From contig PUQB01000239.1 in NCBI GenBank assembly GCA_003024785.1, forward strand, positions 161,501 through 225,500: a DNA stretch of 64,000 bases, in the 5' to 3' direction. A program made the translations under genes and the position numbers. The stretch is from Selaginella tamariscina. Taxonomy: Eukaryota; Streptophyta; Lycopodiopsida; Selaginellales; Selaginellaceae. The first letter of the stretch is position 1. Every line of letters starts with the position of its first letter. This document shows positions 807-61,497 of the stretch, piece by piece. The notes beneath the pieces are model-generated. The model was not told the DNA's origin. It made no database searches and saw nothing but the letters and a program-made list of their open reading frames with translations.

Positions 807-842
<36 letters not shown>

Positions 843-4948: not shown

Positions 4949-4963
4949 ATGTGTGTGTGTGTG

Positions 4964-5010
<47 letters not shown>

Positions 5011-5905: not shown

Positions 5906-7382
5906 GTAGCTATTACACTGTCTGCCATAGCCCCTGTAATAAAAGCATATTCCTAGTTTGGCCTTAGTATATTCTATGAATACTTAATAATTGAATAACA
6001 ACTGCTGCATTAATGTCTTACATTATTTATAATTATGTTTAAAAATTATCAATGCGAATTTCTCATTTTTAAAATTCCTGTTTTAAAATGATTAAAATTA
6101 CCTAATTTTCGAAATTTTCAAATGTGTCTAAATCATTTGAACAACTCACGACACCCACAACACACGCACACGAGGCAGAAGCTCCGGCCCGGCGGAAACG
6201 AAACCGTCTGACATTTCCAATTCAATAACATAAACATTACGTATTGTGTTGATAGAAACGGAACTCTGGACATGATCTGTTTGGTGGAAACACATAAGCA
6301 TGACAACTATAGTCTTGAACTTAAATCTATATTCTATGTGAAATCCAAAGGTAGGGAGGCATTGAAGTGTATACAAAAGAGTTTATAATCATGGTCGTCG
6401 TACTGAAAGAAATGATAAGAGGGGTATGTTCCTATCATCTAGATTATAATAAAAAGGCTACAAAGATGTTGTACTACATGTATGTTATTTTCCACCACCA
6501 TGGGTACAATAAAAAGATTTTCCCTTGAACGTTACAGGGGATAAGAAGGATGAATGTGAAACCTTAACAGTCCAATAGTAAATGTACAAATAGAAGAATC
6601 CACAAGAGAATATGTGGAGGAGAGGGCAGGATAAAATTCTTAAATTTTTAATTTTTTAAAAAATGTTCCTTTATGAACCTTTATATTGGTCTTTTATACT
6701 TTAACTTTTTTTTATTATAATCTTTTTTACTTAATTGAGATGAAGTAAAGTAAAGTGTAAGGGATTAACTTTCCTTGCATGTAAATAGAAGTTCACTTTA
6801 AACAATCAATATCGGCATTAACAGTTTGATTATTTACACACACACATGTATGTATATATATATACAGATATATGTGTGTGTGTACACACACACACACATC
6901 ATAATACAATTAGAAAAATGATATATATGAAATTTATCTTATGTCCATATATAATTCTGAAGTTTCAAAATTATATTTTTCTTCTTCAAAATTCAATTTA
7001 AATTTTCATGTACTTTAATAGAATATAAAGTAACTCATATTTATATTTATATTTAATTTATATTTAAATTTATATTTTATAATTCAGAGTATTTAATTTC
7101 AAAAACACAATGAATTAAACATATTTATTGCAATATAATATATTTACAAGATTATGCCAGCTACTAACATTTATTTATTTATATGTGTGTGTGTGAAGTC
7201 CGTGCGTCTTTATTTACGTCGTATACCCTTGTGTAATGTATGTTAAAAAAAAATGTATTGTGTGTATGTGTATATTTATTGTATGCATGTACATGTGTAC
7301 ATATGTATAAAATATCTACATATATATATACACACACTCACATATACAAAACACACACACACACACATATAATCAATATAGG

Positions 7383-25341: not shown

Positions 25342-28127
25342 ATACCCTAACGCTTTTCTTTCTCGTAATTTTGAATTTTATAAATTGAAAGAGAGCAACC
25401 GGGCACTCTACAATATTACTTTTAAGGAATGTCATATTTTAGATGAGCCTTTATGCAATCATGTTCTTATCACAATTTATGTATTAATAAGGATGGCAAC
25501 TCCTAATTGCATTCGTAAAAATGTTAGGTGGTGGCAACAACATAAAGATAAGGAGAAAGTCTTTATAAATAAATTAATAGGTTAATAAGGATATGATTTC
25601 ATTTGTAATTATGTTTGATATTATTTTTACTATTTTTACAATGAAGAATAATATGAATATTCTAAGATATTTTACGAATATTCCTTACTAAGTAAGGTTA
25701 TTGAATGATTAATTTGTTAATTAATTAATATTTAAGGCTTAATTATATATTTATTAAATAATTAATTAATAATTAAAACTTAAGTATTAATTAGCAATTT
25801 ATTTTATATTCCCATTTTCATGTATCATGCCCATTTTAGTTATAACATGCATATGTGTTTCATTTAACATGTATTTGAGAATTTTTCAGTTTGAAATGCT
25901 AGAAAATTACCCTTCAAACTTGGTTGCAATAAGGAGCAATGAAGGTATTATAATAGTTGAGATTGTCTAATAATATAAATTATTTATATTTAATTTAATT
26001 ATTATTGTTTTTATGCAGGTTCTCCAAGAACGTAAAAGAAAGTTCTAATGGAACTTGAGAAGTCTTATTTAGAAGAGAAAATAAAAAATGTCATGAAAAG
26101 ACCAACAAAAGCGATGGAAACAACTATAAGAAGTAACTAAGTCATTAACCAAGTTATCTTGATATGTTATGTAGTATAAGTGTGATTAAGCTTAAGATGA
26201 TGTATTAAGGATGGATCACTAGATTCAATTTAACATTGAAAACACTTAATATTAAATAATATAATTAATAATTTTAATGTCTTTAGGTATTGTTTTCTAT
26301 TCAAAATTTAATATATTCTATAATAAATAGTAACTCTATGTGTTTTTAATATGTTAGAAATAAAATGTGTTTTAATGTGATGTTTTTATGTTTACATAGG
26401 TGATGCAAGTGGTTACTATTATGATCATGTTTAGTGAATTATAAATTTATTTATTTTTAAGATGTCTTATAATACATAATATTAAAAATGTAATCTTACA
26501 ACTTTATTACAATAAATTAAATAACTCACAATCAACATCATTGAATGAATAATCCAACCACAACTTAAAATTAACATATGGAATAAGAAAGAAGAAAAAC
26601 CAGATCAACAAACATGAGTACATAAAAGGGATCCCAACTATATATAAAAAAGGTAAATTACCTATATTACATGTTGAAATATAACATGCATATTATAAAT
26701 AAATGTAAGATATCAAAATAACAAATTTATATAACAACAATAATATGCAAGACTCAATATTGCCAAGCAACAATGTATAAACCACCTTGATGATTTGCCC
26801 ATATTAAAAGAATAAGTGTGAATCACAACCATGCCCATATTGAAAGATATCATCATGAACATAATCACTAAGACCATATGTGTATTGTATAGAAACCAAA
26901 ATCAAATGTAATAACCATACAAATACAATGATTATAAGTGGCATAATAAAAGAGTTCATGTAACAATATGACAATCGATATAATAATGCACAAAAATAGA
27001 TAAGGGAAAGCAACATTTACTCATGACAAAACAACAATCACCAACATCACCAACATCACTTGGACCAATAAGACCTCTTCATGATAAAGTCCATAATATG
27101 ATATGTTTTTGAATGCATAATATGATATGCTCTAAATGACACTATTCACTATATTTTTAAACTATTTTGAACAATCAGAACTAGCAATTAAACGAGTATA
27201 AATACAAATCAAGATGAAGAGGATTGTTAAAATTAACAACAAGATAAAAATTAAAATGGGAGAATTATTTTAAATTACCAATAGCCAAAATATACATCAT
27301 AATAATGAGAGTACGCATGGACCAACAAAAGAACTAGATAGTGCAACATAATTAAGAAAAGAAAAAATTACAATGTTAAAAGTTATAAAACAAACACATC
27401 ATTTTAATAAAAATGACATTTTACTACTACCAACAAGTGTAAATTTTTCAGTGCATAATTGGCATTTTAAATGGCACTTGAAAAGATTAGTGTTTTATGA
27501 ATCACTTGTCTACTTGTCTTTAAAAAAAAATAAAAAATTATTAAAACTATTTTGAAATACAAACAAATATAAAAAAAATAAAAAAAATAAATAAAAAACT
27601 TTCTTGCTAATCTTTTCAAACGCTAAGCTAAGCATTTAAAATGTTAATTGTGCATCATTGCTACAAACCAATACAATTTAAACATTAACATCACCATTAG
27701 AACCATTAAGAAAACAAATCATTGCAATTATATTAAAACAATTGTTCCATTTAAGGATAGGCAATTATTAATGCTTGCACCTTTTTTTATGTACCTAGAT
27801 CATAAATGATTTCAACACCAACAATACACTTGACCGAATTGAAATTAAATAATTATGACTACATAGATAGATATAGATTGGGATAAGTACTAGTAATTTT
27901 AATCATTATGACCAAATAGACGTATATTTATTAGGATAAGGAAGCACTAATAATTTCAAGAATATTCTTGTGAAAATCCTTGGCTACGAAGGAGTAGAGA
28001 CACGTAGATAAATTTTATAATTTGGGCCATAATAAACCTAAAAGAAGGATACTGGACACTATTAACCCTAAATAATTACCTTAGAAAAAAATGCATTAAC
28101 TTCATACTCTTAAAGTGCCAGTCTATG
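25342..28127. other. AT-rich intergenic DNA, no gene seen
   Basis: Very AT-rich. A few lysine-rich open stretches (for example near 26020-26140) are too short and biased to call. Confidence 0.5.
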
Positions 28128-28225
28128 GATGAATATATCTACATCAGGATCCATGGACAATATGCAAATGAACACGTAATACATATGTATGGATGAATAT
28201 GTCTACATCATGATCCATATACAAT
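28128..28225. repeat. Roughly 66-bp tandem duplication whose second copy is split by the Harbinger element
   Basis: A unit beginning TATGGATGAATAT(A/G)TCTACATC is present twice. The first copy continues through ACAATATGCAAATGA. The second breaks after ACAAT at 28225 and resumes after the transposon at 31793 as AATATGCAAATGA. The intact copy therefore shows the empty site and defines a 3-bp target duplication, AAT. Confidence 0.75.
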
Positions 28226-28257
28226 GGGCCGATCCGCACATAGTACACAAACGTAAA
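28226..28257 (+). repeat. Left terminal inverted repeat, Harbinger copy 1
   Basis: Pairs with 31761-31792 over about 30 bases with two or three mismatches. The preceding AAT is the target duplication. Confidence 0.8.
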
Positions 28258-28699
28258 TTTATTAAAAACCTAGTCTTAAAATTTATGTATTACTTTGATC
28301 CACACATAGTATTTAAAATTTAAGTTTACAAAACCATTTAAGTATTTTTTGATCCGCACATGGTACATTACATAAATTTTAATGCACAAATGTTATGTCT
28401 AAATAGAGTCTGGTTCGCACATAGTATATAAACATAAATTTTAAGAACATGTTCATCCGTACATGGTTTTATACTTAAATTTTAAAATTTTGAATTTTAA
28501 TTTGCAATTCTTAGGCAGTTTGAATTCAAAAATCAACAGCGGAAACAAACATGGTCTTCAAGAGCAAGCCTCTTCCTCGCTCCATCATCCTAAGCAATCG
28601 AAGGCTATGAGGGCTCACCCTGGGGATCCGAGTAATCAATTAATGGCCCATATAAGTCGTAATACACCCCTTTCTTGAGCCTCTGCTACTCGCACTCCT

Positions 28700-29796
28700 T
28701 ATCCCATCTCCGCTGCATTTGATCCATGTTTCCCTCGTCGAGATCAATCATGCAAAATGCAACATGCATGAATTTGAGTAGGGAAGAACTTTGGATGAAC
28801 CTTCTATTTCTAATCCAACCATCGAAAATGTTGCTTCAGAAGGCTGAAGGCTTGTTCCACCATGATTTTGGCCTTATGATGATGATCATTGAATGCTTGT
28901 TCACCCAATGTGTGGTTTGAACCCGTAAAAAATGATTTACGCTTGAAAATGAGGAGTGAAAATGAGGAGCTTACCCAAGTAAGGAATCATCATCGCCTCC
29001 GCCAGTTGGTAACCCTTATCCCCAATGAGATAAGGCTTCACTTGCTCATTGAAGGTGAGTATAACCGGCTCCTGCAACAGATCCCCCTCCACAATCTGAT
29101 TCTTTTCCTCCAAACGCACATGTCGTGAACACTTCCTGTAAAAACATATGAAGCATGAAACTAGTCAAGAAAATTTTTACTTGGCCATTCTATGTAGATG
29201 CTCAGAAAGCGCTGCCTCAAATCCACCACCTCCTGGAGAATCATGTTGTAACGCTACTTCCGGTCGAAGTAGTCAGCTCCATCACTAGTTGGCTGCTAAT
29301 GCATCTCAAAGTGAGTATAGTCTATTGCACCAACCACATTCGGAAGCTTGGTTTTTCTAATTCGTTGAAACTCCCTCACAACTGCAGACACCTTCACTAC
29401 CGAACTTGGAAACTTGATCTTGTGTTTCAGCACCCAAACTATAGTTTTAGTCATCTCCAAAACAATCTCATGAGCAATGGAATGGCCGATGGTGAACTTG
29501 TTCGACAACTCATTGTAATCTAAATTCTTCATGAGCTTACAAAGCCTCACTCCTAGCCAAACATAAGTGGGTACAACCTTCCTCCACCTTGTGTTCTTCT
29601 TTGAAATCCCGCTCTCAAGCACCCGAGTAAGGAACTTAAACGTCGACTTCCTCATCTGTAGTTGCTTCTTCCACTCTCCGGGATGTAGTATTGGAGCATG
29701 AACTCCTCCCACCAACTCTTGTTCCTCGTTTGACCCACTAGATGCTGCAGCGTCAGTTGAACATTGTTGCAAACTCAAATCTTCACTCCTCATCAT
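28700..29796 (-). pseudogene. PIF/Harbinger DDE transposase, dead
   Basis: Opens with MMRSEDLSLQQCSTDAAASS and runs through GEWKKQLQMRKSTFKFLTRV, then GHSIAHEIVLEMTKT and LPNVVGAIDYTHFEMH, holding the first catalytic D of the Harbinger/ALP1 nuclease fold. Downstream frames hold SDGADYFDRK, RYNMILQEVVDLRQRF and HHHKAKIMVEQAFSLLKQHF, with the catalytic E in VEQAF. In-frame stops follow FEMH (TAG where copy 2 has CAG) and FDRK (TAG in both copies), with further stops after LLKQHFRWLD. In an intact relative the product cuts and joins DNA at the element ends. Confidence 0.8.
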
Positions 29797-30769
29797 CTAG
29801 AAACTTAAGAAAATCACAAGACATCCTATCATCTAATAACAATCATTTTGCTCCTTCTAAAACAACTAAAAGTGCCTAGCCGATGAGGCACTATGCTTTA
29901 TTGTCGGGCTCAAGCTCAGGCTCAAACATCCTCCAATCCATCCCCTCAGCCCTCTTTCCTGTAAATTAAAAAAAAATTCAAATAAAAAAACATGTAGTTT
30001 ACCTCCGTGGGGAATCCCTCCATCCCCTGGGAGGAGATTTCCATCATTGAGACCTCCTCCAACTTGGGCATGTCCTCCTATTTCATCAAAGTTTAAAAAA
30101 AAAACAAAAAAAAAAAAGTGAACAAACCTCCACGTCTAGGTTCTCTGATGTCGGGGCTGTTGGATCTCCATCTTGGGGGATCCTTGTAGCTTCCACGGCT
30201 TCCCTTGCCGGGATATACCCGGCCTCCCAACTTGAATCAATAGGGTTAAACCCTGGCCCTCGATTTCCCTTGCTGGGCGCTCGACTTTCCCTCTCTAAGG
30301 AAAAACCCTACCTCTTGGGTTGCATCAGTAGGGTTAAACCTCGGCTCCCTCCCCAGGATAAAACCTGGGTTGAAAGCCCCCTAGATGGAAGCTTGATGTG
30401 TTTTAATTTATTTATTTTAAATATATAGACTTAAAAAGAATTATAAAACTCACCTCCATCTCATGGCCCCTCTCCCCGATTTGGAGCCTCTCCTTGAGCG
30501 CCCCAGTAGTAACTTGGTGGAGCAAAACCTGAAAAAACCCAGGAAGTTGTTGAGTGAAAGAAAAAAAATAAAGCAAAGGAAAAAGAACATGCAAACAAAA
30601 AATAAAAAAATCTCACGTCTCTCAAGATCGCTTTTAGGTAGCTCGCCACAGAGTTGGAGAGGTTCACTATTGCCACCACATAATCCCTCCCACATGCCAC
30701 TTTCTTCCGCTGTAGCTCAGTATAGCGATTCATAATTGTGTTTCCCTCTCAAATAACACTAGTCACTGA

Positions 30770-31200
30770 TTAGTCACTCCGCCTCTTCTTCTTTCGAATT
30801 CTAGTTGAACCGTGAGTTGTTTCTACTCTGGAATCATTGTCGTTGTCGCTCTCTACATCAGTAGCTGCGACTGCAGCAGTTGCTGCAGCCTCAATGTCCA
30901 CCTCGCTGGCAACAATGTTGGAGGTTGAGCTGATGCAAAATGTTGTACAACTCATCCTCAAACTTCGCACCATCGAGCTTCCTCCTCTGAGTGTCCGTCA
31001 TGGAGAAGTAGCTATACGCCCCAGTCTTAAGCTAGTTCTCCTGAACCTTCTTGTAGTAACCCAGAATGTTGAGCCATCTCCTCCGGCATGCATCAGCATC
31101 ACGATCAATCCCCTACTCCTGAAGCTTCTTGAATCACCTCCCACCGTGCATCAGATGTCAATCCTCGATCGCAACTTGTAGACTCTTGTTGGTCGATGAT
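30770..31200 (-). pseudogene. Harbinger second gene: Myb/SANT-like DNA-binding protein, dead
   Basis: Minus-strand frames contain RLTSDARWEVIQEAS, DRDADACRRRWLNILGYYKK and FSMTDTQRRKLDGAKFEDEL, typical of the SANT/Myb-trihelix partner of Harbinger transposases. A Ser/Ala-rich, acidic tail ends in a basic RIRKKKRRSD. Frame changes separate the parts. Such partners bind the element ends and help import the transposase. Confidence 0.65.
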
Positions 31201-31760
31201 ATCTTGTCCTTTCAGTTGCGTCAATGCCAACGATTCATCTAGCGTCTAGTTTTTCCCCCTATTTTTATCCTTCACCTTGCCTCTCGCAGTACCTCGAACA
31301 ACCTTAGAGCTATCCTCTATTTCCTACACTTAGATGCAGCTAAAAAACTAGAAAGGAGAAGAAGAAGCTTATCGATGGATTTGGCATGGATGGATTTGCT
31401 GCAGGAGGATTTGGCGCTGGTGGATTTTCCATGGGTGTGGGCACCGGGGATTTCCACAGCTAAATTTGCTACACTTGCACCGCACCATCGAGTCCCAGCT
31501 CCTCGCGCCATGAACCCTAAAGAATCTTCAATAGAATATTTTTTTGTGTACTTCACAAATTTTATGCACTCATGGGAGAGGTTGTTTAAAATTATAACGG
31601 GGTAACATAAATTTGCGTTAAGTAGTACATAAATTTGTGTCCAAGTGCAAATTAGAACAGTTTTAACGTTTAGTACATAAATTTTGAGGTACATAAATTT
31701 AAGTACTGGTTTTAGGTTTATGTACTAAGTGCGGATCAAAAAATTTGCTAAATAGTACAT

Positions 31761-31792
31761 ATTACGTTTATGTACTATGTGTGGATCGGCCC
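31761..31792 (-). repeat. Right terminal inverted repeat, Harbinger copy 1
   Basis: Reverse complement matches the left end at 28226. It is followed by AAT, then the resumed flank ATGCAAATGAATAGG. Confidence 0.8.
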
Positions 31793-39645: not shown

Positions 39646-42141
39646 CTTTATCTTTTTCCCATCGGATCCTTGTGCGTGCGTGCTTGTTTGTATATATATA
39701 GAGAGAATACTTACAGTATAAAATTATTATATACGTTTCATTAATGTTAGGTTGTTCCTAGGGATAGGTACACGGAGGGCTTGCTCCTGCCGGTAAGCGT
39801 ATTTTGACATTGAATTAGGTAATAAGAAGCCCAATAGAGAACGCCCTAAAGGATAATTTCAATCCAAGTGTTGCATATACATACTTAAGAATAAATACAT
39901 AATGAAATAAGAAATGCAATACTTACACATAGGCTTTGGTTAACATCTTCTCGGACTCCTCTCTGTTCTAGGTCTTATGTTTATTAATTTTACTTAATAT
40001 ATTTTTCTTTGCAAAGGGTTTAATCTACAGGCCTCGCGAGTGATTCATGCGGCCCTGTTTACGAAGAGACGTGTATATACTTATATACACAAATGTACAT
40101 GCTTGATACGTCTTACTTGATTGTTTATTTTGCTCACTGTTTGGATGATGTTTCACTTACTGTAATAATATTATAATAGCATATCTATCTATCTAGTTAT
40201 ACACACACAGTATAACTGGTGAATCCTGGTTACATTAGTTTCTTTTCTTGCAGAGGCCTCGTTGATGCAGAACCTCACGCATGAAGAAACGCTTCCCGAA
40301 GGTGGACTGGTGTGTGTGAGAGAGAGGGGATTCACATAGAGATCACCAGAAATCAATAATGATTTAATTAATGAAAGTTAAAGAGTTTTTATTAAGTACA
40401 ATTAAAATCAATAAATAAATTTAAAATTAAATAAAATGAATTATATAAAAACAAACAGAAATTATTACTGTATAAACAAGGGTAAAAACAAAATAATATT
40501 ACAATATATTATGTAAAAAAACAAATCAATGTTCGACCCCTAGTATGTTAACTGTTTTTTGCAAAAACAAAGGCTTGTTTTCTAGAGATGTTTTTTACCT
40601 TAAAAAAGACAAAAACTAGGGGTTTACATTTTCCGGTGGAATTGTTATGGAGTATGAATTGATTTTGCTAAGTAAGTTATAAAGTTCTTTCTATTCATAT
40701 TAAGTATAATAATATTAATCATCCATATATAAAATGATATTAGGAAGAAAGAGGCTAACGTACCACGTGATTGAGGACACGATGAAATAAAATAAAGGAA
40801 CTCACTATTACCGGACCAAAGGCGCAAACATTGGGAGTTGAGAATGAAGTGCCACGTGTGCAAGGATTCTATCATCCAGTACTACGATCCCAAAGAGAGT
40901 GGAAGAAGCAACTACGAATGAGGAAGTTGACATTTAAGTTCCTTACCTGGGTGCTCGAGAATAGGATTTTGAGGTGGAGGAAGGCTTACCCGCTGATGTT
41001 CAACTAGGAGTGACGCTTTGCAAGCTCATGAAGAATTTAGACTACAATGAGTTGTTGAACAAGTTCGTCATTGGCCATTCCATTGCTCATGAAATTGTTT
41101 TGGAGATGACTAAAACTATAGTTCGGTGCTGAAACACAAGATCAAGTTTCTAAGTTCAATAGCAAAGGTGTCTGCAGTTGTGAAGGAGTTTTAATAAATT
41201 ACAAGCTTCCAAATGTGGCTGGTGCAATAGACTATACTCACTTTGAAATGCATCAGCTGCCAACTAGTGATGGAGCTAACTACTTCGACCGAAAGTAGCG
41301 TTACAACATGATTCTCCAAGCGGTGGTGGATCTGAGGAAGCGCTTTCTAAACCTACATAGGATGGCCATGTAAAAATTTTCCTTGACTAGTTGCATGCTC
41401 CATATGTTTTTACAGGAAGTGTTCATGACATGTGCGTTTGCAGGAACTTGACATTGACTAATCGGATTGTGGAGGGGATTTGCTATAGGAGCCAATTATA
41501 CTCGCCTTTGATGAGCAGGTGAAGCCTTATCTCGTTGGGGAGGTTACCAGCTGGCGAAGGCAATGATGATTTCTTACCCAGGTAAGCTACTCATTTTCAC
41601 TCTTGATTTTCAAGTGTAAATCATTTTCAAACCACACATTAGGTGAACAAGCATTGAACGATCATCATCATAAGGCTAAAATCGTGGTGGAACAAGCCTT
41701 TGGCCTTCTAAAGCAACATTTCTAATGCTTAGATCAGAAACAGAAGGTTCATCCAAAGTTCTTCCTTACTCAAATTCATGTATGTTGCATTTTGTATAAC
41801 GTTTTGATTGATCTCGACAAGAGAAACATGGATCAAATGCAGCAAAGATGGGATAAGGAGTGCGAGCAGCAAAGGCTCAAGAAAGGGGTGTATACGACTT
41901 GTATGGTCCACTAATTAAGTACCCGAATCCTCAAGTTGTAGAGGGTGAGCCCTCAAAGCCTTTGATTGCTCAGGATGATGGAGCAAGGAAGAGGCTTACT
42001 CTTGAATACCATGTTTGTTTCCGCTGTTGATCTTTGAATTCAAACTGCCTGGGATTTAGAAATTGAAATTAAAAAATTCAAAATTTTTAAAATTTTGATG
42101 TGCGGATGAACAAGTTCTTAAAATTTATGTTTATGTACTAT

Positions 42142-42170
42142 GGGTCGATTTGCACCTGCACTTATACTTA
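42142..42170 (+). repeat. Left TIR of the Pack element
   Basis: 29 bases matching the reverse complement of 44233-44261 with one mismatch. Preceded by TAT. Confidence 0.8.
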
Positions 42171-42465
42171 GAGATAAGGGTCAAAAGTGCATTTAAATTG
42201 CTCTGCACATGTATTTAGGAGATAAGGGTGGCCATTAAATTAAATTTTAAGTGTGGCCATTAAATTAAATTTTAAGTGTGAAAAATTTAAAGTTGTTTGC
42301 TCTGCACCTATTTTAAATTTAATGGCGTAACCCTTAAAATTTAAGTGTTTCAGAAAGAAAAAAATCAAAATTTAAAACCATCTCGGAAGGTGATATTAAA
42401 TTTTAAGGGGCACTTATAAATTATTTCAAAAAGATTCTTGTGAAGATTCTTTAAGGGCTAGGTTT

Positions 42466-42790
42466 ATGGTTCGCGGCATCCAGATTTTGGCGCTAGATCG
42501 GCTGATATTAGGGGTGGCAATTGCAGAGGACCGCGCCGTCTCCTTCTACCCACTCGCTTATTTATATTCTTCATTTCAATTCTTCCCCAATAGGCAGGAT
42601 TTTATATTACTGATTAATATCTTTCCAGGCTATATAGTGTTGCAACTGAGATTTAGAGTACATCTCCATCTTCATAGTCACTTGAAATGTCCATCTGTGA
42701 GAAAGAGTGGAGGAAGCGTGTCAGAATTGAACAATTCACTTCTTCGAAGAAGCGTGTCAGGATTGAACACGAGGATAACTGGGGGGAGTT
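42466..42790 (+). other. Unidentified cargo segment of the Pack element
   Basis: Open from an ATG at 42466 (MVRGIQILALDRLILGVAIA), with more balanced base composition than its surroundings. In another frame, MSICEKEWRKRVRIEQF is followed by a near-repeat SSKKRVRIEHEDNWGEF, reflecting a short internal duplication. Probably a third captured gene piece; family not recognised. Confidence 0.35.
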
Positions 42791-42819
42791 TAATAGATTT
42801 TATAGCCTTGGGAGCATAA

Positions 42820-43000
42820 GAAAACCATTATAAAGTTCAACACCACATAAGCCACTGGGATTCATATTACGAAGGAGTTTAACATCCTTAATGAACTCAC
42901 TAATCCATGTAAGCGGTATAGAAACTGTGGTCTGGTGATAAAAGAGTCCATGTATTTCCAGGTCCCAAGGACAAACAAACTCCCTAGACACAAAGTTTGG
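42820..43000 (-). pseudogene. Captured fragment of an L-gulono-1,4-lactone oxidase-like gene
   Basis: The minus frame reads NFVSREFVCPWDLEIHGLFY, HQTTVSIPLTWISEFIKDVK and LCGVELYNGFLM, matching the C-terminal half of plant gulonolactone oxidase-like flavoproteins of ascorbate metabolism. The fragment starts at a TTGTAG-type acceptor near 43003 and stops abruptly near 42822, inside what would be an exon. It has no start or stop of its own. Confidence 0.65.
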
Positions 43001-43189
43001 CAACCACCTACAATACGTATGTGCTATATATGTGTGTGCGTGTGTGTGTAGGTTATATGGTATACTTGAGGATTGGATTTTGTGTTGGAAGCCAACTATT
43101 GGGTAACCAGTGAAAGGATGGAGCTGTTGTCCAACAACAAGGAGAGCTGTTGTTTTCGAGGATGTTTAGCATACCATTTAGCATACCAT

Positions 43190-43292
43190 GTAGTCTTTTA
43201 AGTAGCCGTATCCTCCATGAAGTTGTAAGGCGTCGTTAGCAACATTAAAGCAATAATCGGTAGCAAATCTAGATATCAAAAGATGGTTAATA

Positions 43293-43352
<60 letters not shown>

Positions 43353-43790
43353 CACACCTTTTAGCCATTGCAGCACAGGCGGAGGCCTTAGGTGAATGAG
43401 CATCTAAAGTAGAAGTTGCATTTGCAATCATTAATCGTGAAGCTTGAATATAGTTAGCATATCTGCTAGCTTAAACTGAGTGTTTTGAAACTCCGCTATA
43501 CTTTTCCCAAACTATAACTCTAAGAAATAAATAAAAGAGATAATTAAGTAAATAAGAATAGAAACTGTTTGTGAGTTGAGACATAACCGCTTGCAGCATC
43601 CAAACAATATTGAGCACCACCAACACTGCAAAGAACTTTATTATAATACATGAACCTGCACGAACCAATGTTTATTCGGCCACCATCAAGACCTGTTATC
43701 GCAATATTAAATCCTGCCCTTCTTTGCCAAGTAGATTCTCAGCAGGCACACGTACATCTTCCAAAATTACCTGAACTATATATATAAATA
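43190..43790 (-). pseudogene. Captured fragment of an isobutyryl-CoA-type acyl-CoA dehydrogenase gene
   Basis: Minus-strand exon pieces read VILEDVRVPAENLLGKEGQ, ITGLDGGRINIGSC, VGGAQYCLDAA, QFKLADML, ASRLMIANATSTLDAHSPKA, and finally [20 protein letters not shown] with GYLKDY. This is the C-terminal domain order of acyl-CoA dehydrogenases close to IBD/ACAD8, mitochondrial enzymes of valine breakdown. Introns are kept. Single-base losses break the frame near 43705 (after GKEGQ) and near 43460. The N-terminal half, and everything after the GYGYLKDY helix, are absent. Confidence 0.7.
43290..43349. repeat. (CT)n(CA)n compound microsatellite in a captured intron
   Basis: Long CT run directly followed by a long CA run, inside an intron of the captured dehydrogenase fragment. 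It resembles those of resident genes and suggests the source gene came from this genome. Confidence 0.9.
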
Positions 43791-44232
43791 TATAGAGTAT
43801 GTTTGTCTGTATGCATCTCTCTCATCATCAAATACAAATCACTCGCATCACCTCCACTAATAAAAGCCTATAATTAATAAATAAAGCTTCCATTAATCTT
43901 TATTATAATGATCTTAAAAGAATAGTTACATACATATAACGTGGCCTTACAATGTTGAATTTCAAAATTTGAATTTGAATTTTTGAATTTTTAAATTTTA
44001 AGTAAAATTTAAAGGTGAAAACATATTCGGAGATGAAAACATTAACAAAATTTAAGTGTTTTATGTACGAAGAGACACGCATTTAGGGGTTAAAATTTGA
44101 GGACAAATTCGTTATCATGTGCGAACACAACAAGTGTTAAAATATGTAATTAAATCGCAAAATTCACTTTAAAATTTTTTATGTGCGAATATACAAACCG
44201 TTAACTTTTTAATTATTAACATTTCAAATTTT

Positions 44233-44261
44233 TAAGTATAAGTGCAGGTGCGAATCGACCC
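44233..44261 (-). repeat. Right TIR of the Pack element
   Basis: Mirror of 42142-42170. Followed by TATGTGATCAGACTC, which rejoins the Harbinger copy 2 sequence. Confidence 0.8.
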
Positions 44262-44641
44262 TATGTGATCAGACTCTATTTAGACATAAAATTTGTGCAT
44301 CAAAATTTATGTATATGTACCATGTGCGGATCAAAAAATATTTAAATAGTTTCGTAAATTTAAATTTTAAATACTATGTGCGAATCAAAGTAATACATCA
44401 ATTTTAAAACTAGGTTTTAACGAATTTACATTTTGTATTATGTGCGGATCCATCCATTGCATATGAATTATGATGTAGACATATTCATCTATACATATGT
44501 ATTACGTGTTCTCCATGGATCCTGATGTAAACATATTCATTCATAATCTGACACTTTAAGGGTATGAAATTAATGCACTTTTCTCTAAGGTAATTATTTG
44601 AGGTTAATTGTGTTCATTATCTTTTTTTAGTGCATATCAAA

Positions 44642-50467: not shown

Positions 50468-53400
50468 TCATCCCCTCCTTTCAAAAGGATGTAAGTTGGT
50501 TAGGGTTCTCTTGTAGATGGGCCCGGATCTAGAGGAACATCAGGAGGAGGCACTGGTGGATCTATAGGCACCACAACTTGTTCCTGTTGCACAAAATGCT
50601 TCAACCATTGCACAAAATGCTTCAACTGTTGCACATATACAATCTCCGGAGGATCGGGTTGAATGTCGTGCCGAACCTCATAAACATGCGGCCCTACCTG
50701 CCGTAACACTCGATACGGTCCTTTCCATTGGGGAAGGAGACTCTTAACTAAACCATTATACGTGGCTTAAATGTTTTGCTGACTCCGCACGAACCAATGG
50801 AAGAATGCTCGTCAAATACAGATCCCATGACCTAGCATCAGCAGCTCGCGGTAACCGAGAAGGCAAACCCAACTCCGTTGGCAACACCGGGTCATGACCA
50901 TACAAGAGCTTATATGAGGAAGTACCAATGGAACTTTGTACTCCAGTGACATAAGCATATCGGAGAGACGGCAAATAACCATCCCAATCCAAATGTTGAA
51001 AGTTCATATACTTCGCGATCATCCCCTTGAAGGTTCTAACAAGCCATTTCACTAAACCATCTATCTGAGGATGATAAGCACTTGTGAAAGTGTGGTGTAT
51101 CCCTAGTCGAGACGTCAAAACATGAAATGCCTCATCCATAAATGCAGGACCATTATTCAAGAGAATTTGCTCCGGACAAGAATGTTGAAACACGACCCAA
51201 TTAAGGAGAAACTGATCAATAGTAGAAGCAGTCGCATTAGCAAGAGCACCAACTTCTACCCAATGACTTAGGTAATCAGAAACAATAATAACGTACTCAT
51301 TGCTAGCAGTTGACCGCAGAAAAGGTCCCCTTCCGAAGCACATGGGGGAGTATTGCGAGCTTGGCACCACACACAGCTACGCACATACCGAATCACATCT
51401 CCTCGCAACTCCGGCCAATAGAAAGATCTGCACAGTTCTCCATCACACGACGATGTCCCATGTGCCCAAGAATAGGAGAGTCATGGTAAGCATGGAGGAA
51501 GCGTGGAATGAAGATTGAAGGCACCACCAACCGCAAAGGATCATCTGGATCAGTCCCCACAAAATAAAGGCTGTAAATGCCTAAAAGGCAAGTCATCAGC
51601 AAGTGATGCAGGATTCTCAAACCCATCACGAAGCCTTCGAATCCACGGCTCAACCTTTTGAGCTTCCCGAACCTCATCCAAAGACGGCAAATCTAACTCT
51701 GCATTCTGCGGACACTGAACGTCAAGCACAACTGCTGATGGTACGGAATCTTCATCCAAAAAGTCCACTGAAGCTGGAACAACTGGTTCCTCTGGGGCAA
51801 CAGAAGAGAGAGAAGGTGGAAGAGGAGCCCGAGAAAGAGCATCAGCATCAGCCATGGAACTCCTACGATGAACAACTTCAAAGTCGTAAATTTGAAGTTT
51901 CAAGGCCCACCGAGCAGTACGCCAATCAAATTCTTCCGCTTCAACAACGAAGTGACTTGCATGATCGCCTTCCAACAACGTCGTGAACCATGCAAGTAGG
52001 CATGGAGCTTCTCAAAACCCCAAACTGCTGCTAGACACTCCTTTTCTGTCGTGGAGTAATTCACCTCTGCTGGCTGCAATGTACGGCTGATGTAAATGGG
52101 ATGTCGTTGGCCAGGAACACTCGTACTCTCCTGCATCAATACACCCCGGCCGATGTCAGAAGCATCTACACGCAAGATGAAAGGACGGGTGTAATCCGGG
52201 TACGCCAAAACTGGAGGAGTCGTCAACAACTCTTTGAGATCTGCAAATGCCTGCTTGCAATCCTTAGACCAAACAAAAGAAGTCATTGACGATTTCAACA
52301 ACGCGCGCAACGGTGCAGTACGATCTGAAAGATGATCCACAAAACGACCCAGATATTGTACCTTGCCAAGAAAGCGTTGCACATCATTCACACACTTTGG
52401 CGTAGGGAACTTCAAAACTGCAACTAGTTTGTCAGGATCGACTTGCAAACCTTCACGTGAAATGCGATAACCCAGATAAGTGGTGTCCTTTGATCCAAAC
52501 ACACACTTAGATGGCTTCAACTTCAAACCAACTTCCCGCAGCCGATCCAAAACCTTACGTACATCACCGACATGCTCCTCCCACGTTCCATCCGAATGGA
52601 TCAAAACATCATCGATGAAATCGGCAGTCACCTCCGGCATGTCGCAAAGAACCTCGTCCATCATACGCTGGAAAGTTGCTGGAGCATTGCTCAAACCGAA
52701 AGGCATCACCAAGAACTCGTACAGGCCAAATGGTGTTAAAAGCAGTCTTGGGAATGTCCATGTCAGCCATCGGAACTTGCCAATATCCAGATGCGAGATC
52801 TAACTTGGTGAACCAACGGCTCCGCCCCAGTCGATCCAAAAGGTCTGCAGTATGAGGAAGTGGGTACACATCTGAGACGGTTACCTCATTTAATGGGCGA
52901 TAATCAATGCAGAATCGAACGCTCCCATCAGGCTTCGTCACAAGGTGAGGTTCGCACGCCCAAGGACTTCGAGACTTCCGGATAACACCCTTCTCCAACA
53001 TCTCTTTGACATTCGCTCGTAAGATCTTGAGCTCCTTTGGTGACGACGCCAACAGGTACCTTGATTGGCCTAGCTTCTCCAGTTGGAATAGGGTGGCGTG
53101 TCGCAATCTTGGCCCCAGATGACAAGTCGAAGTTGAAAAGATCAGCATACTCCTTCTTGAGTTGATCAACAACTGCACACGATCATCTGATGGATCCAGA
53201 GAAGAAAGGAAGAGCATGAAGGGAAAATGGTTGGAAATAGGGTGAGACAAAAGTGATGGAAGCAGATGGACGAAGTGGAATAAAGTAAAAGGAATGGAAG
53301 AAAGACGAGGGAGAGTCAAACAAGGGGGAGACTTTTCAAAGTCACACTTGGCATGATTGCGAGTTAACCAATCCATACCAAGAATAAGGTGAAAAGCTTG

Positions 53401-54798
53401 ACTCGGCACCACCCGCAAAGATTGAAGCTCGAGCTCACAATCATCCACACGAACAACAATGTCCACTTCATCTCCGAACAAGCATGAGTGTCCGTTGCCG
53501 TACAGAATGAAGACTGGTTCTACCGCACGACGCAAATGAAGGCTGCAACGTGTAGCAACAGATTGAGAAAAAGGACAAACTCGAACCTGTATCCACCAAC
53601 ACTGAAAGGAAAACAGGACATGCGTGTGATTAAAGAGCTTGAAAAGTGAAAACCGGATGATTTGGTGCCGAGTGAACCCCTTGATGATACTCCCGAAAGA
53701 AAGACGGAGGGGTCACTAATTTATTCGCACGAGGACCCTCCTGTGCGATTCGTCGTTTCCCGGAAGATCCACCGCATCACAACCTTCCACTGCAGCAGCA
53801 CCAACCGGACGTTGTTGACGCCATGGCCTCCATCCTGGAAATGGGGGACGCCAATCGGGAAACCGTTGACAGCGCCGATACGTGTGTCCAACCTCATCAC
53901 ACGCCCAACAACGAACTGCACGTCCACGTCCTCGTCCACGGGCCCACCTTGTGCTGGTACACGAGCGGCAACAGCCTCAACCTCCATCGGAGCAGGTCCA
54001 TCCCCAACATGAAGTGGAACGAGAGCACGTGAAGGGCAAGTGGGAGAGGTGACGACTCATATCGTTGTGCCAGCCTCAAAGCATCGTCAAGAGTCACTGG
54101 AGCTAGTGCATGCACAAGCCCCACAAGGTCTTGACGAAGTGCTGGCCACAACATACCTAACTTGATGCGTTCCGACATGTTAGGTTCTGCACGCAGCAAA
54201 AGGCTTCGAAAGCGAACACCAAACTGCATCACCGACTCAGATGGCTCCTGACGAATACGATGCAACTGCTGAAAAGCATCATCACAGTCGTCCGCATGCC
54301 CAAATGCACGTTTGAAGATCTCTGAAGAATATTCCAATCTCCACGAGTTGCAACGTCCAGACCATTGCAACGCCGTCCCTTGAAGACAAGTAGGAAACTC
54401 GCGCAAACACTGAGCACCGTCCCACGAATGATATGTGGCAACCACAGTGAAGTGGTCAAACCAATGGTACACATCATCTCCAGGATTTCCGCGAAAGAAA
54501 TCCGGTCGGACACGGGGGTTTGCAACATGAGTAGGAGGAGTACCCTGGCTGTTGAATGCTGCCATCAACTGAGAATGATTGTTCAATTGCACACGCATGG
54601 CATCCAACAACTGCATGAGTAACTGCTCCACAGACAAGGGATTTGCCTGTTGTGGATCATGGACGAAGAAAAAACAAAATCTACAAAAAAGAATAGATCT
54701 AACAATGGAAAAGCTAGATAAGAAGACAAAGAAAATCGAAAAAAGACAAAATCCGAGCACTCCGTAGGGACAATTAGAGGTGCCCCTCCCTCCACTAA

Positions 54799-54958
54799 TG
54801 TAGAGCTCGGAATATATAAATGTATATATCCATTAGTTCAGAAACCCTAACTTATATACAAGAGCAAGTGGTCCAAATTGAATCCAATCCGACGGCTATC
54901 AAAATCCACTACACTAATAATAATATGTGCACATCCAACCGTACACGTGGATCTTACA
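54799..54958 (-). repeat. 5' LTR of fossil A
   Basis: Begins TGTAGAGCTCGG and ends GGATCTTACA. Very short for an LTR of this group. Confidence 0.8.
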
Positions 54959-56607
54959 AATATAACTTTATAAAATGATTATTGAGGGCTTTTAATTTAA
55001 TTTTGAAAATTCTTAAAATTGTTTATTATGAATAAGCTACCTTATGAATAATTTTTAAAGTTATGAATCGCATTATTAAAAGATTCAACAATATTATAAA
55101 TTAAATAATTATAGTTGGCTAGTAAAATGATAAATATCAAATTTTCTTTTGTTGAAGCAACATGGTAAATGACTTACTTATTAGGCACAAATGCATAATA
55201 AGTTTTATGTAAATATTTATCATTAAATATTAAATTTCTTTTTATATGGATTTTGTGTCAATGATTATTACATTTATGCTTATGATTGAGTTTAAAACAA
55301 GAAAATTATATTATACCCCTAAAATTTATTATACCTCTATAAGTTTTATATTTACATATATATATCCTCTAAAAGTTTTAAAAGACTTTAATCATAAATA
55401 TATATAAAACAATATACCCTTTTAAAATAACAATATTAATTAAAAATATATTTTAAAATCATAATATATTGCAAGTGAAATAATTAATGTTTATTAAGTG
55501 TTAAATGTTAAAAATTGTCATAGTAAAAAAATAAAATATTTTTAAAAATAATAATATTATATTATGATATATATATATATATATATATTAGATTGTTTTT
55601 TAAACCTAAATATAATAAATACAAATTACTTATAATTTTTTATTGGTTTTCAAAAAATATTTTTTAATTTCTAATTTTGAAATTTATGAAATTTTAAATT
55701 GAAGTTTCAAGGTATATAAATATTAACATTTTAAAAGTCAAAATATTATGATTAAAGATTTTCAAGGGTATATATAATTTTTAAAAGTATATATATGTAA
55801 ATATAAAACTCTTAAGAGTATATATGTAGTATAAATGTAATTTCCCCTTAAAATAAATAAAATTAATGATCAATTTTGTTTTGCAAATCAATACTAATTT
55901 TGATAAGAGATTAAATTTATTCAATTTATGTGATTCTTACAATTTTAGTGTTAAATTTAATTATATAGATATAAAACACAATTAAATTTTAGAAATTGAA
56001 AATTCATTGAACTTTAACAAAAACACTTTGAATGTTAACTCATTTAGTTTATATTTCACTTTATGAGCAAAATTAAAGTATATGAAATTAAATTTAAACA
56101 AAAAAGAGAAATAAATTTCTTCTAAATAACTTGGATAAACTTATTTATAATTTATAAAAATTTAAAATTGATAAAAAAGTTTCTAAAATGAGATGCAAAT
56201 TATGAATCTTAATTGGTTTAATTGATTTATAACTTAAATGTTAAAGATTTATAAAAGTATAAGACCATTAGGATATGATAAACATAAGATATAAAGATTA
56301 AAATTATGAAATATATAAAATAATTGATTATTTAAAATAAATAAAAGATAAAAAAATAGTTAAGAAAGATTTTCTTTAAGAAAAACTTAATTACTCAAAA
56401 TAAAAAATTAAATGTTTGAAAGTCATTTAATCCCATTTATAATATTTAATGGCTAACAAGATTGAAAAAATTCAGACTTTTTATAAATTTTAAAAATAAT
56501 TAAAATAATGTATTCTAATCATATGACTCAATTTTATATGTAATTTCAAATTTGTGAGATTGTAAATTTTAATGTATAAGTATTACATATATACACACAC
56601 ATTGGTC
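54959..56607. other. AT-rich spacer between the two LTR fossils
   Basis: Extremely AT-rich, with an AT run at about 55567-55588. No coding frame or structured repeat seen. Confidence 0.6.
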
Positions 56608-56811
56608 TGTAAGATACTGTATATATATAACATACTGTATATACGCATGTGTATATACACACATGCGTAGTGACACATGGTTGGTGATCTGGCCCATAAG
56701 TTAGCGCCATGTGTTGCATGTGTGCCACGTGGCAGAAGGTCTCCTGTATATAAGCAGGGTTTTTTGTAGCTGAATACATTTGATATTTTTGAATATATAT
56801 CTGCTCTTTGG
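56608..56811 (+). repeat. 5' LTR of fossil B, with promoter-like TATA and a long palindrome
   Basis: Contains the palindromic arms TACGCATGTGT and ACACATGCGTA around ATATAC, and a CTGTATATAAGCAGGG TATA-type motif typical of an LTR promoter. Confidence 0.8.
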
Positions 56812-59800
56812 TGAAGAAGTTGGGTATTCCTTTCTTCCGCCTTTTTCTTTTCTTGTTTCCATGACAATGAACATGGAGACGGCTTTTAGCATTATTGCTA
56901 CTACTAATTGATGCACAAACTAAGTTGTTGGAGCGCTTTGTTGAGGGTCCGTCCTCCTCTTCCCCGCCTGAGCCTCATGCCGGGGGATCTGCTTCTAGTA
57001 CTCCTTCATCTTTCTTCACAGGCCACAAATCCGAGGGTTCGACCCCGATCTTTTTGTGGTGATCCAGGAGATGATGTATACACTGGTTTGATCATTTCCA
57101 AGTCATTGTTCGTTACCATGGTTGGGATGAGGCCCGTGCTCTCAGAGAATTCCCTACATGTTTGGAAGGCCCTGCGCTCAAGTGGTATAATGGATTGGCT
57201 GCGGAGATTCAAGCCAATAGTAATCGGTTAACGGAATGCCTCAAACGTACGTTTGGCAAAGTTGAGGATTCAGATGATGCTTTCCAACAACTGCATGCGA
57301 TACGACAACATCCTGGTGAGTCTGTTATGCGGTTCAGTATTAGGTTCGGGGATTTAGTTCGGCGTGCATATCCTAACATGCCTGAGCCATTAAGCTCGGT
57401 ATGTTATGGCCAACTATGCGACCCGAACTTGTTCGATTCGTTCGGGCTCTTCGTCCTACCACATTGGAGGAAGCTTTTGCACTAGCTCAACGTTTTGAGT
57501 TGGTGCCTGGTGAGGGCCGTGTTCCCCTTGGGTTACCTGCTCCTCTTGTTCAGCGTGCTGATCCAATGGAGGTTGATGCTGCTGCATATGTGCCCGCACG
57601 GCAAGCCTTTCGTGGTCGACCTCGGGGCCCACCCCGTGGACCACCTCCACGAAATCGTCCTGCACCTGCTCCAGTCCTGCCCGTGGTGGTCAAAATCCAC
57701 GGATTCGTGACAGGAGGAATCGGAACAATGCAGGTCGACCCAATCAAGTTCATTGTTGGGCCTGTTGGGCCTGGACATACTTGGCGGGCATGCGATGTGT
57801 ATCCTGATTGGCGTCCACCACATCCAGGCTGGCGACCATATGTTCCGGATGGTGTGCCTGTGGCGGCCATTATGTCTGATGATGAGCTTCCAGATGACGA
57901 AGCCTCTCTTGCAGGTGGATCTGTTGCGGAAAACCAGTAATCGTACGGGCGACGGAGGGATCCCGTGCGATGGAAGACTTCACCTCCATGCTTTTTCCGC
58001 TATGCATATCAAGGTTTGCAAGTTCCACCAGATCATCCAGTTTTCACATTTTCTGCACGAGTGAATGATCTTTCAGTCACAGTGCTTGTGGATACAGGAT
58101 CCTATGTCTTCCATAACTACTTCTCTAGCGCATCGGTGCTCATTACCCTTAAGACGTGCAGATAAGGTCTTGCACATTTTATATGGTAATGGGCAGTCTC
58201 GTGCAGTATCACAGTACACCACTTGACTACACTGGTTTGGGTGCCAACGTAAGTTTCCCTCTGGGTCTCTTAGGGTTGTCCCTTCCCAGGTCTTTGACAT
58301 ATTCTGGGATGTGATTGGTTAAAGCAGTCGAAAGGTATGTGTGATTTTTCACTCTCTCCTCCTGTATTACGCTTGGAGTCTGTGTCTCTGCAGTCTGTTC
58401 CTTTACGTCCAGAGAAGCTTGTTGCTGTTTGTATCACATACAGCTCCTTTGATTCCGGTCTTGGGGTGGTGTTCATCTCAACAGGTTCAAATGCCGGATC
58501 CGTCACCTGAGTGTCGAGCACATGCATCGAACAACTTAAGAAACAGTATGCAAGTTTGTTCAAATTTGATCTGTCCCAAGGTGCACGTGTGAAGACTCGA
58601 CACTGTATACCCAGGCAATGCAAAGCCTTTCAAAGTCCCGGTTCGACGCAGGTCACCAAAGAGTTATCAGCCATGCGAACAGCTGTTACTGATATGATTG
58701 GTAAACGGTGTGTCGTCCGTCACGGAGTCCATGGGCATGTGAACCTCATTTGGTTCCCAAGCCTGATGGATCTCTCCGATTTTGTGTGGATTACCGACCT
58801 CTTAACGATGTTACCATCAAAGATGTCTATCCACTTCCGAACTCTGCCGATCTATTAGATCGTTTGGGTCAGAGTCGATGGTTTACTAAGTTGGATTTGG
58901 CATCAGGATATTGGCAGGTTCCTATGGCTGAGGAGGATATTCCAAAAACGGCCTTCCGGACACCTTTTGGTCATGCCTTTTGGATTGACTTCAGCTCCTG
59001 CCACCTTTCAACGCATGATGGATGAGCTTCTTTCCGATATGCCTGATATCACTGCCGATTTTATCGACGATGTGCTCATTCATGGGTCTGGTTCTTGGGA
59101 GGATCACATTCGTGATGTACGGCGCGTTCTTGATCGATTTCGAGAAGTTGGCCTGAAGTTGAAACTTGAAAAGTGTGTGTTTGGTTCGACCGACACCACT
59201 TACTTGGGTTACCGTATATCTCGAGAGGGTTTACAGGTGGATCCAATGAAGTTGCGAGCTGTTCGAGAGTTCCTCGTCCCCGTACAGTACAGGAAGTCCG
59301 TTTCTTGGGCAGGTGCAGTACTTGGGTCGATTCATCGATCATCTCACTGATCGAACTGCCCCTCTTCGGGAGTTAGTTCATCCACAGGTATCTTTCAGGT
59401 GGACTCGCAGGTGTCAGCAGGCATTTGACCAGTTAAAAGAGTTCCTGACAACTCCACCATTGCTTCAATACCCAGATTTTACTCGTCCGTTCATTTTACG
59501 AGTAGATGCCTCAGATGTTGGTATTGGTGGTGTATTGATGCAAACTGATGCTGTGGATTCTTCAATTCGACACCCGGTGGCTTACATTAGTCGAGTACTC
59601 ACGCCGGCTGAGCGGAATTATTCCACTACTGAAAAAGAATGCCTTGCTGCTGTTTGGGGTTTTGAACGACTTCATGCCTACTTACATGGGAGTGAAACAC
59701 TTTTGGAGTGTGATCATGCTGCTGTCACTTCCTTATTAAAACGGAAGAATTTAGTGGGTCGCGTAGCCAGATGGGCATTACGTCTCCAGGTATATAACTT

Positions 59801-61295
59801 TAAGGTGGTGCACAGGCCTGGGCGAACAATGGTGGATGCGGATGCACTTTCTCGAGCACCCCTCTCCGATTCCACTTTGCCTGCTCATGCAGTAGCTGCA
59901 GCGTTCGGTTTGATACAAGCCCCTCAGGTATTCGATGCCGACTTACCATCCTTGGAACAGTGGCAGGATGCTCAAAAACATGAACCATGGACGAGGCAAT
60001 TACGCGATGCGTTTGCAAATCCGTCTTCCGAACCTCGGTTTCGACAATATCATGCTCAGTTTCGACTTCAGGATGGTTTATTGTATTTTATTGGGACAAA
60101 TCCAGAGGACAGATGGCGTTTGGCTGTACCCTCTACATATGTTCCACACCTTCTTCGAGCATATCATGATTCACCTATTGTTGGAGGTCATCTTGGTCAC
60201 CAACGAGTGTTGGAGAAGCTGCGCCGATCATTTTATTGGGCATGCGTGGTGATGTGATCAGGTATATTCAAAGCTGTCCCACTTGTCAAACTCGGAATTC
60301 CTCTACGACTCGGGCCATGGGGTGTTGGAATCCATCAATGTCTCTCGCCCTTTTGAGTTAATTGCAGTGGATTTAATGGGACCTTTTCCACGTTCTTCTC
60401 AGGTAACCAGTACATCATTGTTGTATCCGATTATTTAACTCGATGGGTGGAGGTTGGTGCTCTTCCGGATGCAACTGCCATGTCAACAGCTTTGTTTCTG
60501 TTCGATAATGTGGTTTTGCAGCATTCTTGTCCAGAGCATGTTATCAGACAATGGCCCCGCTTTCATTGCAGAGGTATTCCGAGTGTTGTGTGAGAGGTTA
60601 GGGGTAAAACATTCATTTGCCTCTCCGTATCATCCACAAACTGATGGTTTGGTGGAGCGATTGAATCGGACCTTCAAGGGTATGATCTCGAAGTATGTGA
60701 ACTTCAATCACACGGACTGGGATTGGTATTTGCGATGTTTGAGATTTGCTTATGTAACAGGCATTCAGAGTTCGATTGGTATCTCTCCATTCAAGGCATT
60801 GTATGGATATGATCCTAAGTTGCCTAGTGAATTGGGGTTATCATCGAATCTGCCACGTGCCGAGGATGCAAAAGATGTGGGCTCAACATTTAGATGCTGT
60901 TTTGCCTCTTCTGCGTGCAGAGTCTGCTGAACATCTTGGTCGAGCTCAAATGCGGCAACAATCTTCTTACAATGCACGACATCAAATTCCACCAGATTTT
61001 GCTGACGGTGACTTAGTCCTGGTACGTTTTCCCAAGCTGACTGCACCTGGGCTTGCAACTGGTTTATTACATAAGTGGCTTGGTCCCTACCGAGTACTCC
61101 GAAAGGTTGGTCCTCAGGTATATCAAGTACAGTTGGTGGGATCTCATGAGGTTGAGATAGTTCACGTGGTTCGAATGAAACGGTTTTGTTCGAGACTCGT
61201 TGAGTACATTTGGTCATACCTTAGATGGCCCAGCTCACACGGATCCAGGACCATCAGATCCATCACCATCTACACAGCCGCAGAGGGGAGGATAA

Positions 61296-61497
61296 TGTAA
61301 GATACTATATATATAACATACTGTATATACGCATGTGTATATACACACATGCGTAGTGACACATGGGTGGTGATCTGGCCCCATGTGTCAGCACCACATG
61401 TCGCATGTGTGCCACATGGCAGAGGGTCTCCTGTATATAAGCAGGGTTTTTGTAGTTGAATACATCTGACATTTTTGAATATATATATGCTCTTTCA
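61296..61497 (+). repeat. 3' LTR of fossil B
   Basis: Starts TGTAAGATACTATATATA and ends TCTTTCA. Keeps the palindrome and TATA motif of the 5' LTR. Confidence 0.8.

Follow-up and report, generated by a model that had tools for sequence, protein, structure and literature searches.

The element at positions 42142-44261 of the window (the whole stretch of DNA analysed, 64,000 nucleotides of Selaginella tamariscina) is a real Pack element, and a richer one than first described. We consider it probable that it is a Pack-type, non-autonomous member of a Harbinger-like (PHIS) family, that its transposase was supplied in trans, and that its cargo was copied in during break repair, first from a gulonolactone oxidase-like (GULLO) gene and then from an ACAD8 gene.

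Ends, Target Site, and Anatomy of the Insert

The insert and its parts are as follows.

42142..44261, no strand: Pack-type non-autonomous element, 2120 bp (terminal inverted repeats (TIRs), target site duplication (TSD), empty site, family in own genome)
42142..42170, plus strand: left TIR, 29 bp, 28/29 complementary to the right end
44233..44261, minus strand: right TIR, 29 bp, pairs with the left end
42139..42141, no strand: target duplication TAT, left copy (a single TAT in the empty copy)
44262..44264, no strand: target duplication TAT, right copy, adjoining the right end of the insert
42142..42524, no strand: left terminal module, common to relatives (blastn against 37 relatives); inner limit varies, mostly 42465-42633
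43951..44261, no strand: right terminal module, common to relatives (blastn against 37 relatives); inner limit varies, mostly 43951-43997
42627..42811, plus strand: third piece of cargo, the 5' end of an F-box-like gene present in multiple copies (25 other genome matches)
42814..43155, minus strand: GULLO-like fragment, two exons and the intervening intron (TIGR01677; putative donor on contig C1015)
43156..43167, minus strand: 12-nt filler at the GULLO/ACAD junction, without evident source (same junction in L042, L045 and L049)
43168..43953, minus strand: ACAD8-like (isobutyryl-CoA dehydrogenase) fragment, several exons with introns and some internal deletions (putative donor on contig C441)

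The earlier note had described a 2.1-kb insert with 29-bp inverted ends, and its coordinates prove exact, with a single mismatch between the two ends. The ends start GGGTCGAT and form the sole inverted 29-nt pair in the 64-kb window with at most one mismatch and a spacing of 200-5000; 20 dinucleotide shuffles of the window contained no complex inverted pair of comparable quality. TAT stands on both sides of the insert, and the reverse Harbinger copy at 28038-29695 reads TACTATGTGCG uninterrupted, with one TAT only, which confirms the proposed 3-bp duplication. The statement that the insert has no transposase holds as well: tblastn with five transposase-type queries gave no match in it, and its frames submitted to Pfam gave no transposase match. 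The insert thus combines TIRs and TSD, host gene fragments, absence of a transposase and more than one family member, the features of Pack-TYPE elements; with the empty site and the donor loci elsewhere in the genome, these bear out its reading as a Pack-type transposon. Exact TIR scans of viral_contigs and genome_contigs returned 0 matches, as expected for a plant repeat.

Elsewhere in the window, 50759-61297 holds two LTR-retrotransposon-like coding regions in opposite orientation, where the three frames tested gave RVT_1, RNase H, integrase zinc-binding and gag matches. A bHLH-like gene lies at 18244-19867 (HLH, 2.9e-09; a weak plant ACT-like domain, 0.00033, below cut-off).

The Host Element and Its Second Copy

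Two copies of the host family are present in the window.

40875..44455, no strand: host element, truncated Harbinger copy split by the insert, right TIR degraded (blastn to 28038-29695)
28226..31792, no strand: two-ended host-family Harbinger copy, 3567 bp, TSD AAT, empty site near 28418-28424

The insert is indeed nested in a Harbinger copy, as had been claimed. The two host copies, though, probably arose by duplication of one stretch, since they have ~188 bp in common outside the TIR, and their reading as independent insertions was dropped for that reason. The insert-bearing copy ends at 40875. Divergence between the two amounts to K2P 0.127 over 1426 columns, and the insertion would postdate their split unless the other copy lost the insert cleanly.

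The copy at 28226-31792 has 31-bp ends with a 29/31 inverted match, and a tandem unit adjoining it represents the unfilled form of its AAT target site. One of its frames matches DDE_Tnp_4 with E 5.9e-05, just under the Pfam cut-off, and in the insert-bearing copy 41570-41722 gives a weaker DDE_Tnp_4 match (E 0.0071, below cut-off). The host-family TIR has 40 genome matches at two or fewer mismatches, against 0 for the reversed control. At C942:100100-101335, C948:1130659-1131860 and C989:129135-130315, host-family end matches face each other ~1.2 kb apart; judged by these match positions only, they suggest MITE-like short forms beside the ~3.6 kb forms.

Three Cargo Pieces and Their Sources

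The GULLO piece matches TIGR01677 with E 7.7e-22 and 77.5 bits; the cut-off of 383.1 refers to the whole protein, of which this piece is a fragment. No Pfam match was obtained for it, and a PDB search gave chance-level matches only, none better than E 0.12. A genome search with the piece returned 20 matches. Among those examined, L015 and L017 carry the TIR, and L018 carries terminal-module sequence without it. The locus on contig C1015 (L016) aligns to the GULLO-bearing element L041a solely over locus positions 1211-2987, and its frames span profile positions 2-560 of the 560 in TIGR01677, with the first (1.3e-06) and last (1.4e-13) pieces lying outside the captured stretch. Between the insert and C1015, identity is 93.7% over 335 gap-free columns (K2P 0.066).

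The ACAD piece matches PDB entry 1rx0 (acyl-CoA dehydrogenase family member 8; E 7.3e-10) and Pfam Acyl-CoA_dh_1 (8.8e-05), and a genome search with it gave 21 matches. The locus on contig C441 (L025) aligns to the elements over 554-2127 at most; Acyl-CoA_dh_N (1.2e-10) lies upstream of the captured stretch and the end of Acyl-CoA_dh_1 (6.4e-06) downstream. Identity of the insert to C441 is 97.8% over 631 and 94.7% over 131 gap-free columns, with K2P 0.023 and 0.057 for the two pieces. A frameshift within an ACAD exon is found in the insert and is absent from C441, as expected if the cargo is a decaying copy.

Alignments with both loci continue through non-coding stretches, so that introns are kept in the cargo, as the earlier note had stated, and retroposition was set aside. 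The two loci belong to separate contigs, at least 126 and 149 kb away from the closest contig end, and neither 3.3-3.6 kb locus contains a TIR-like 29-mer at up to seven mismatches. Among the matches examined, no other long one is free of element ends and their remnants, and C1015 and C441 are therefore the likely donors to which the cargo can be mapped, though a lost closer paralogue is conceivable.

The cargo had been ascribed to two unrelated genes, one gulonolactone oxidase-like and one isobutyryl-CoA dehydrogenase-like. Both assignments stand, and it is the count of two that fails: the stretch 42627-42811 has its own multi-copy source and lies on the strand opposite to the other two, so the insert is built from pieces of three genes. 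This third piece has 25 other genome matches at 82-98% identity, the 98% match covering only 46 bp, and differs from one genome copy by K2P 0.028. In the relative L042, other bases stand in its place. At L080, an F-box-like domain follows directly downstream of the piece (E 0.00023, below the Pfam cut-off); Pfam searches with four frames of 42400-42833 gave no match. On C73 and C758, copies of the F-box-like source follow each other at intervals of ~8.6-8.8 kb, suggestive of tandem arrays. In other members of the family, L052 (614-774) and L053 (1302-1472) gave Rfam matches to bacterial-type LSU rRNA (E 1.1e-15 and 2.5e-20), and this stretch is probably organelle-derived DNA captured as cargo.

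The Family in the Selaginella tamariscina Genome

In the genome of the species itself (300.7 Mb, 1391 contigs), the inner 20 nt of the insert TIR have at least 119 matches with two or fewer mismatches, the insert's two included, compared with one for a reversed-pattern control. The search with the 29-bp TIR that the earlier note had proposed thus reveals many other loci with these ends. We retrieved 40 regions with TIR matches, 35 of which yielded 37 two-ended elements (38 with that of the window). In five regions (L072-L075 and L078), no second end occurs within the stretch examined, and in L041, L048 and L065 the nearest end pairs were chosen. Eight of the 38 elements were left out, as both their flanks are 97-100% identical to those of another element (haplotigs or recent duplicates), and 30 distinct loci remain, the window's included. 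Flanks at this level of identity between contigs were seen for L041/L048, L042/L045, L043/L044, L046/L054, L058/L066, L064/L069 and L076/L077, as in an assembly that would have kept both haplotypes, or as after recent duplications.

An exact 3-bp duplication borders 21 of the 30 loci, compared with 0-3 of 30 in 18 offset controls; widths of 4, 5, 8 and 9 were found at 1, 0, 0 and 0 loci, respectively. The nine loci without a matching duplication include L055, one of the three that combine transposase relics with both cargos. Family members have the terminal modules in common, in whole or in part, and differ in their middles. Thirteen loci contain neither GULLO nor ACAD, twelve of them measuring 858-1231 bp and one 2761 bp. 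The longest element cut out, L063, measures 5984 bp and has tRNA-Lys and tRNA-Asn genes in its flanks (82-155 and 6251-6324). In the flank-identical regions L041 (218-3953) and L048 (225-3945), two members lie 57 bp apart in the same orientation. This adjoining pair has no matching outer duplication, and the arrangement is one that could be mobilised as a single composite.

Order and Mechanism of Capture

Counting pieces of at least 50 bp, GULLO is present in 15 of the 30 loci and ACAD in 12; ten carry both, five GULLO alone, and two a short ACAD piece alone. The low limit of GULLO falls at 1211 in 10 of its 15 carriers and the high limit at 2987 in 7 of 15, and this recurrence suggests one capture followed by losses. 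ACAD is enclosed by GULLO pieces on either side in L043, L061 and L063. Together with the GULLO-only relatives, these three loci suggest that GULLO came first and ACAD later. Divergence from the donors accords with this order, being larger for GULLO (0.066) than for ACAD (0.023 and 0.057) and the F-box-like piece (0.028), although this is a weak clock, as the two ACAD pieces differ and the donor genes evolve under constraint. The limits of ACAD vary between an L042 type (554-2127) and an L061 type (573-1926), and its uptake may therefore have taken place on two occasions.

At the junctions, the two sides have GGC in common at GULLO2664/ACAD573 and CC at ACAD1926/GULLO1539, and a 12-nt filler occupies ACAD2127/GULLO1842. 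The filler was considered as a copy of neighbouring sequence and rejected as such: the donor itself already contains the second GTATGC, which leaves just 12 bases sourceless. Junctions lend template switching weak support, since chance alone often yields matches of two to three bases, and where GGC or CC is found, a later deletion rather than a capture point may be the origin of the junction.

Fusion offers another route, in which the inner ends of two neighbouring insertions are lost and the pair moves as a unit along with the host DNA between them. This model (Catoni 2019, as given in PMC8903248) is the origin favoured in the accessible text of PMC8903248, and neighbouring family members do exist in the pairs of L041 and L048, 57 bp apart, so that fusion might apply to the first capture. 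Against this, the insert, which the scan for inner-TIR remnants covered, shows none: its closest internal 29-mers have 14 mismatches to the TIR in 29 positions, which is no improvement on 200 shuffled middles, with best values of 10-14. Neighbours beside one gene also fail to explain a patchwork with ACAD nested in GULLO at three loci and with donors on different contigs. On balance, fusion as a whole is an unlikely account of the cargo, and the evidence weakly favours break repair with template switching.

In the break-repair reading, the insert would have been moved in cut-and-paste fashion by a trans-supplied transposase, and its cargo would have been copied in while breaks within the element were being repaired. 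A 1.8-kb GULLO stretch would have entered first, between the terminal modules, and an ACAD8 stretch would later have split this piece in the middle. The window's copy would in addition have had the beginning of an F-box-like gene patched into its GULLO stretch, and internal deletions would then have given the shorter forms. Capture perhaps took place in transposase-bearing elements, or in elements that recombined with them, as 3 of the 30 loci hold transposase relics along with both cargos.

Superfamily and Target Rule

Autonomous members of the PHIS superfamily have a DDE_Tnp_4-type transposase, and a second ORF with a Myb/SANT domain goes with it. Transposase-like pieces (tblastn E 1e-4 or better) were found in 6 of the 30 loci, three of which also carry both cargos. 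An 83-residue piece in L040 matches DDE_Tnp_4 above cut-off (4.2e-11). Among four L061 pieces, DDE_Tnp_4 was matched by one (0.00031) and Myb_DNA-bind_4 by another (0.0044), both below cut-off, and the remaining two gave no Pfam match; the Myb_DNA-bind_4-like piece is present in L061 and L063 only. These pieces are relics, and no intact transposase gene or mobile copy was established among the 30 loci.

The GGGYCGATYYGCAC start is common to the ends of the insert and of the host element, and over the first 14 bases the two match at 10-12 positions (chance ~5e-05 to 3e-07 per comparison). Only GGGYCGATYYGCAC sites with 0-1 mismatch count here, as the pattern at up to three mismatches is not by itself enriched over chance in the window (11 sites, shuffle mean 7.0, reached by 7 of 100 shuffles). 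Likeness of the ends over 260-300 bp was set aside as an argument for kinship, being weak against shuffles (best local scores reached by 2, 20, 0 and 44 of 200). The Harbinger-type ends claimed by the earlier note are thus upheld by the start common to the host element, and better by the family members with DDE_Tnp_4 and weak Myb/SANT-like pieces. By these marks, we assign the insert to the PHIS superfamily (PIF/Harbinger and kin).

Pooled over both strands, the 21 exact duplications comprise AAT (6), ATA (6), ACT (2), TCA (2), TAA (2), AGA (1), AAA (1) and AAC (1). WNW describes 20 of the 21, and C (G on the other side) flanks the duplication at 21 of 42 sides. The narrow-sense PIF/Harbinger target TWA (TAA/TTA) accounts for 2 of 21 only, ANT, the target of Pangu, for 8 (AAT/ATT 6, ACT/AGT 2), and TNA, as in the C|TNA|G of NuwaII, for 4.

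CACTA elements make 3-bp duplications of varied sequence and have ends reading CACTA or CACTG. Placing the family there would account for duplications of 3 bp that vary and are TWA in only 2 of 21 cases. We regard it as very improbable, because the ends start GGGTCGAT, neither CACTA nor CACTG, the relatives match DDE_Tnp_4 above cut-off and Myb_DNA-bind_4 weakly, and the resemblance over the first 14 bases is to a host element with a DDE_Tnp_4-like frame. Segmental duplication of a site with neighbouring GULLO and ACAD genes would fit the two fragments lying on the same strand, yet it can practically be dismissed: intact genes were not found side by side elsewhere, the TIR-less donor loci sit on separate contigs far from contig ends, the eight contigs on which the genome searches place both genes near each other (C548, C535, C599, C885, C1380, C454, C948 and C769) all have a TIR match within ~5 kb, and the insert comes with ends, a TSD and an empty site of its own.

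For the PHIS superfamily, the accessible text of PMC4482050 gives groups with TWA, ANT, CWG, TNA and AT types of target and one without duplication, and the duplications observed here fit none of these types. A more far-reaching reading, which we offer tentatively and with more doubt than belief, is that the family represents a PHIS group beyond those six, with a relaxed palindromic C|WNW|G target. Its transposase-bearing members would capture genes by gap-repair template switching, and generations of capture (GULLO, ACAD8 and F-box-like; in another branch organelle-type rRNA) would be readable in present copies.

Relation to Known Elements and Significance

Harbinger-type Pack elements had been presented as far less often described than the well-known Pack-MULEs; they are less rare in print than that suggests (PMC8903248, PMC2528002). 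As Pack-PIF (PMC8903248) and gene-bearing PIF elements (PMC2528002) have been published, the kind of element is already known, and the present case is an unusually well documented example of it. The comparisons below refer to the accessible portions of the cited papers.

Pack-PIF elements, described in maize and rice (Gisby and Catoni 2022, PMC8903248), resemble the present family in their PIF/Harbinger ends, host gene fragments, 3-bp duplications and family copies, and maize cluster 18 likewise has pieces of two genes. Those pieces measure 163 and 58 bp, whereas the present ones reach 1.5-1.8 kb with introns. Fragments are nested in some members here, in contrast to the neighbour fusion preferred for Pack-PIF, and TWA makes up 81.2% of Pack-PIF duplications in maize and 52.4% in rice, while those of the present family are mostly not TWA (PMC8903248). 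Pifvine-3 of grapevine is a PIF element with transduplicated exons and introns beside transposase sequence, in several copies, and is alike in this; grapevine PIF duplications are mostly TAA or TTA, unlike those observed here, and the accessible account gives its captures no order (PMC2528002). Turmoil-1 of C. elegans is also a Harbinger element with pieces of two protein-coding genes, but carries them inside the 760-bp inverted repeats of a transposase-bearing element (PMC2572040).

For single-copy Pack-TIRs of animals, gap filling is mostly proposed, with template switching and microhomology (PMC8277862), a mechanism like the one favoured here; those are animal elements, and Harbinger is absent from the main text of that paper. 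Pangu and NuwaII are PHIS groups that, like the present family, have 3-bp duplications departing from TWA (PMC4482050). Pangu needs ANT and NuwaII TNA, which the present family shows in 8/21 and 4/21; C|TNA|G is the preferred target of NuwaII, and C and G often flank the duplication here too. A Harbinger-type family with such a target rule and three ordered sources was not found in the accessible open-licence literature.

The route by which Pack elements capture genes is still argued between fusion of neighbours and template-switching repair. Here, one genome holds donors, single-cargo, nested-cargo and transposase-bearing members, allowing every capture junction to be checked against its source sequences. 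Transcription or chimeric transcripts of the cargo are reported for some Pack-TYPE elements, though they do not define the class, and the present cargo could possibly play a role in transcripts or small RNAs. The family is Harbinger-like with a target rule looser than TWA, and annotation that expects TWA would miss such elements.
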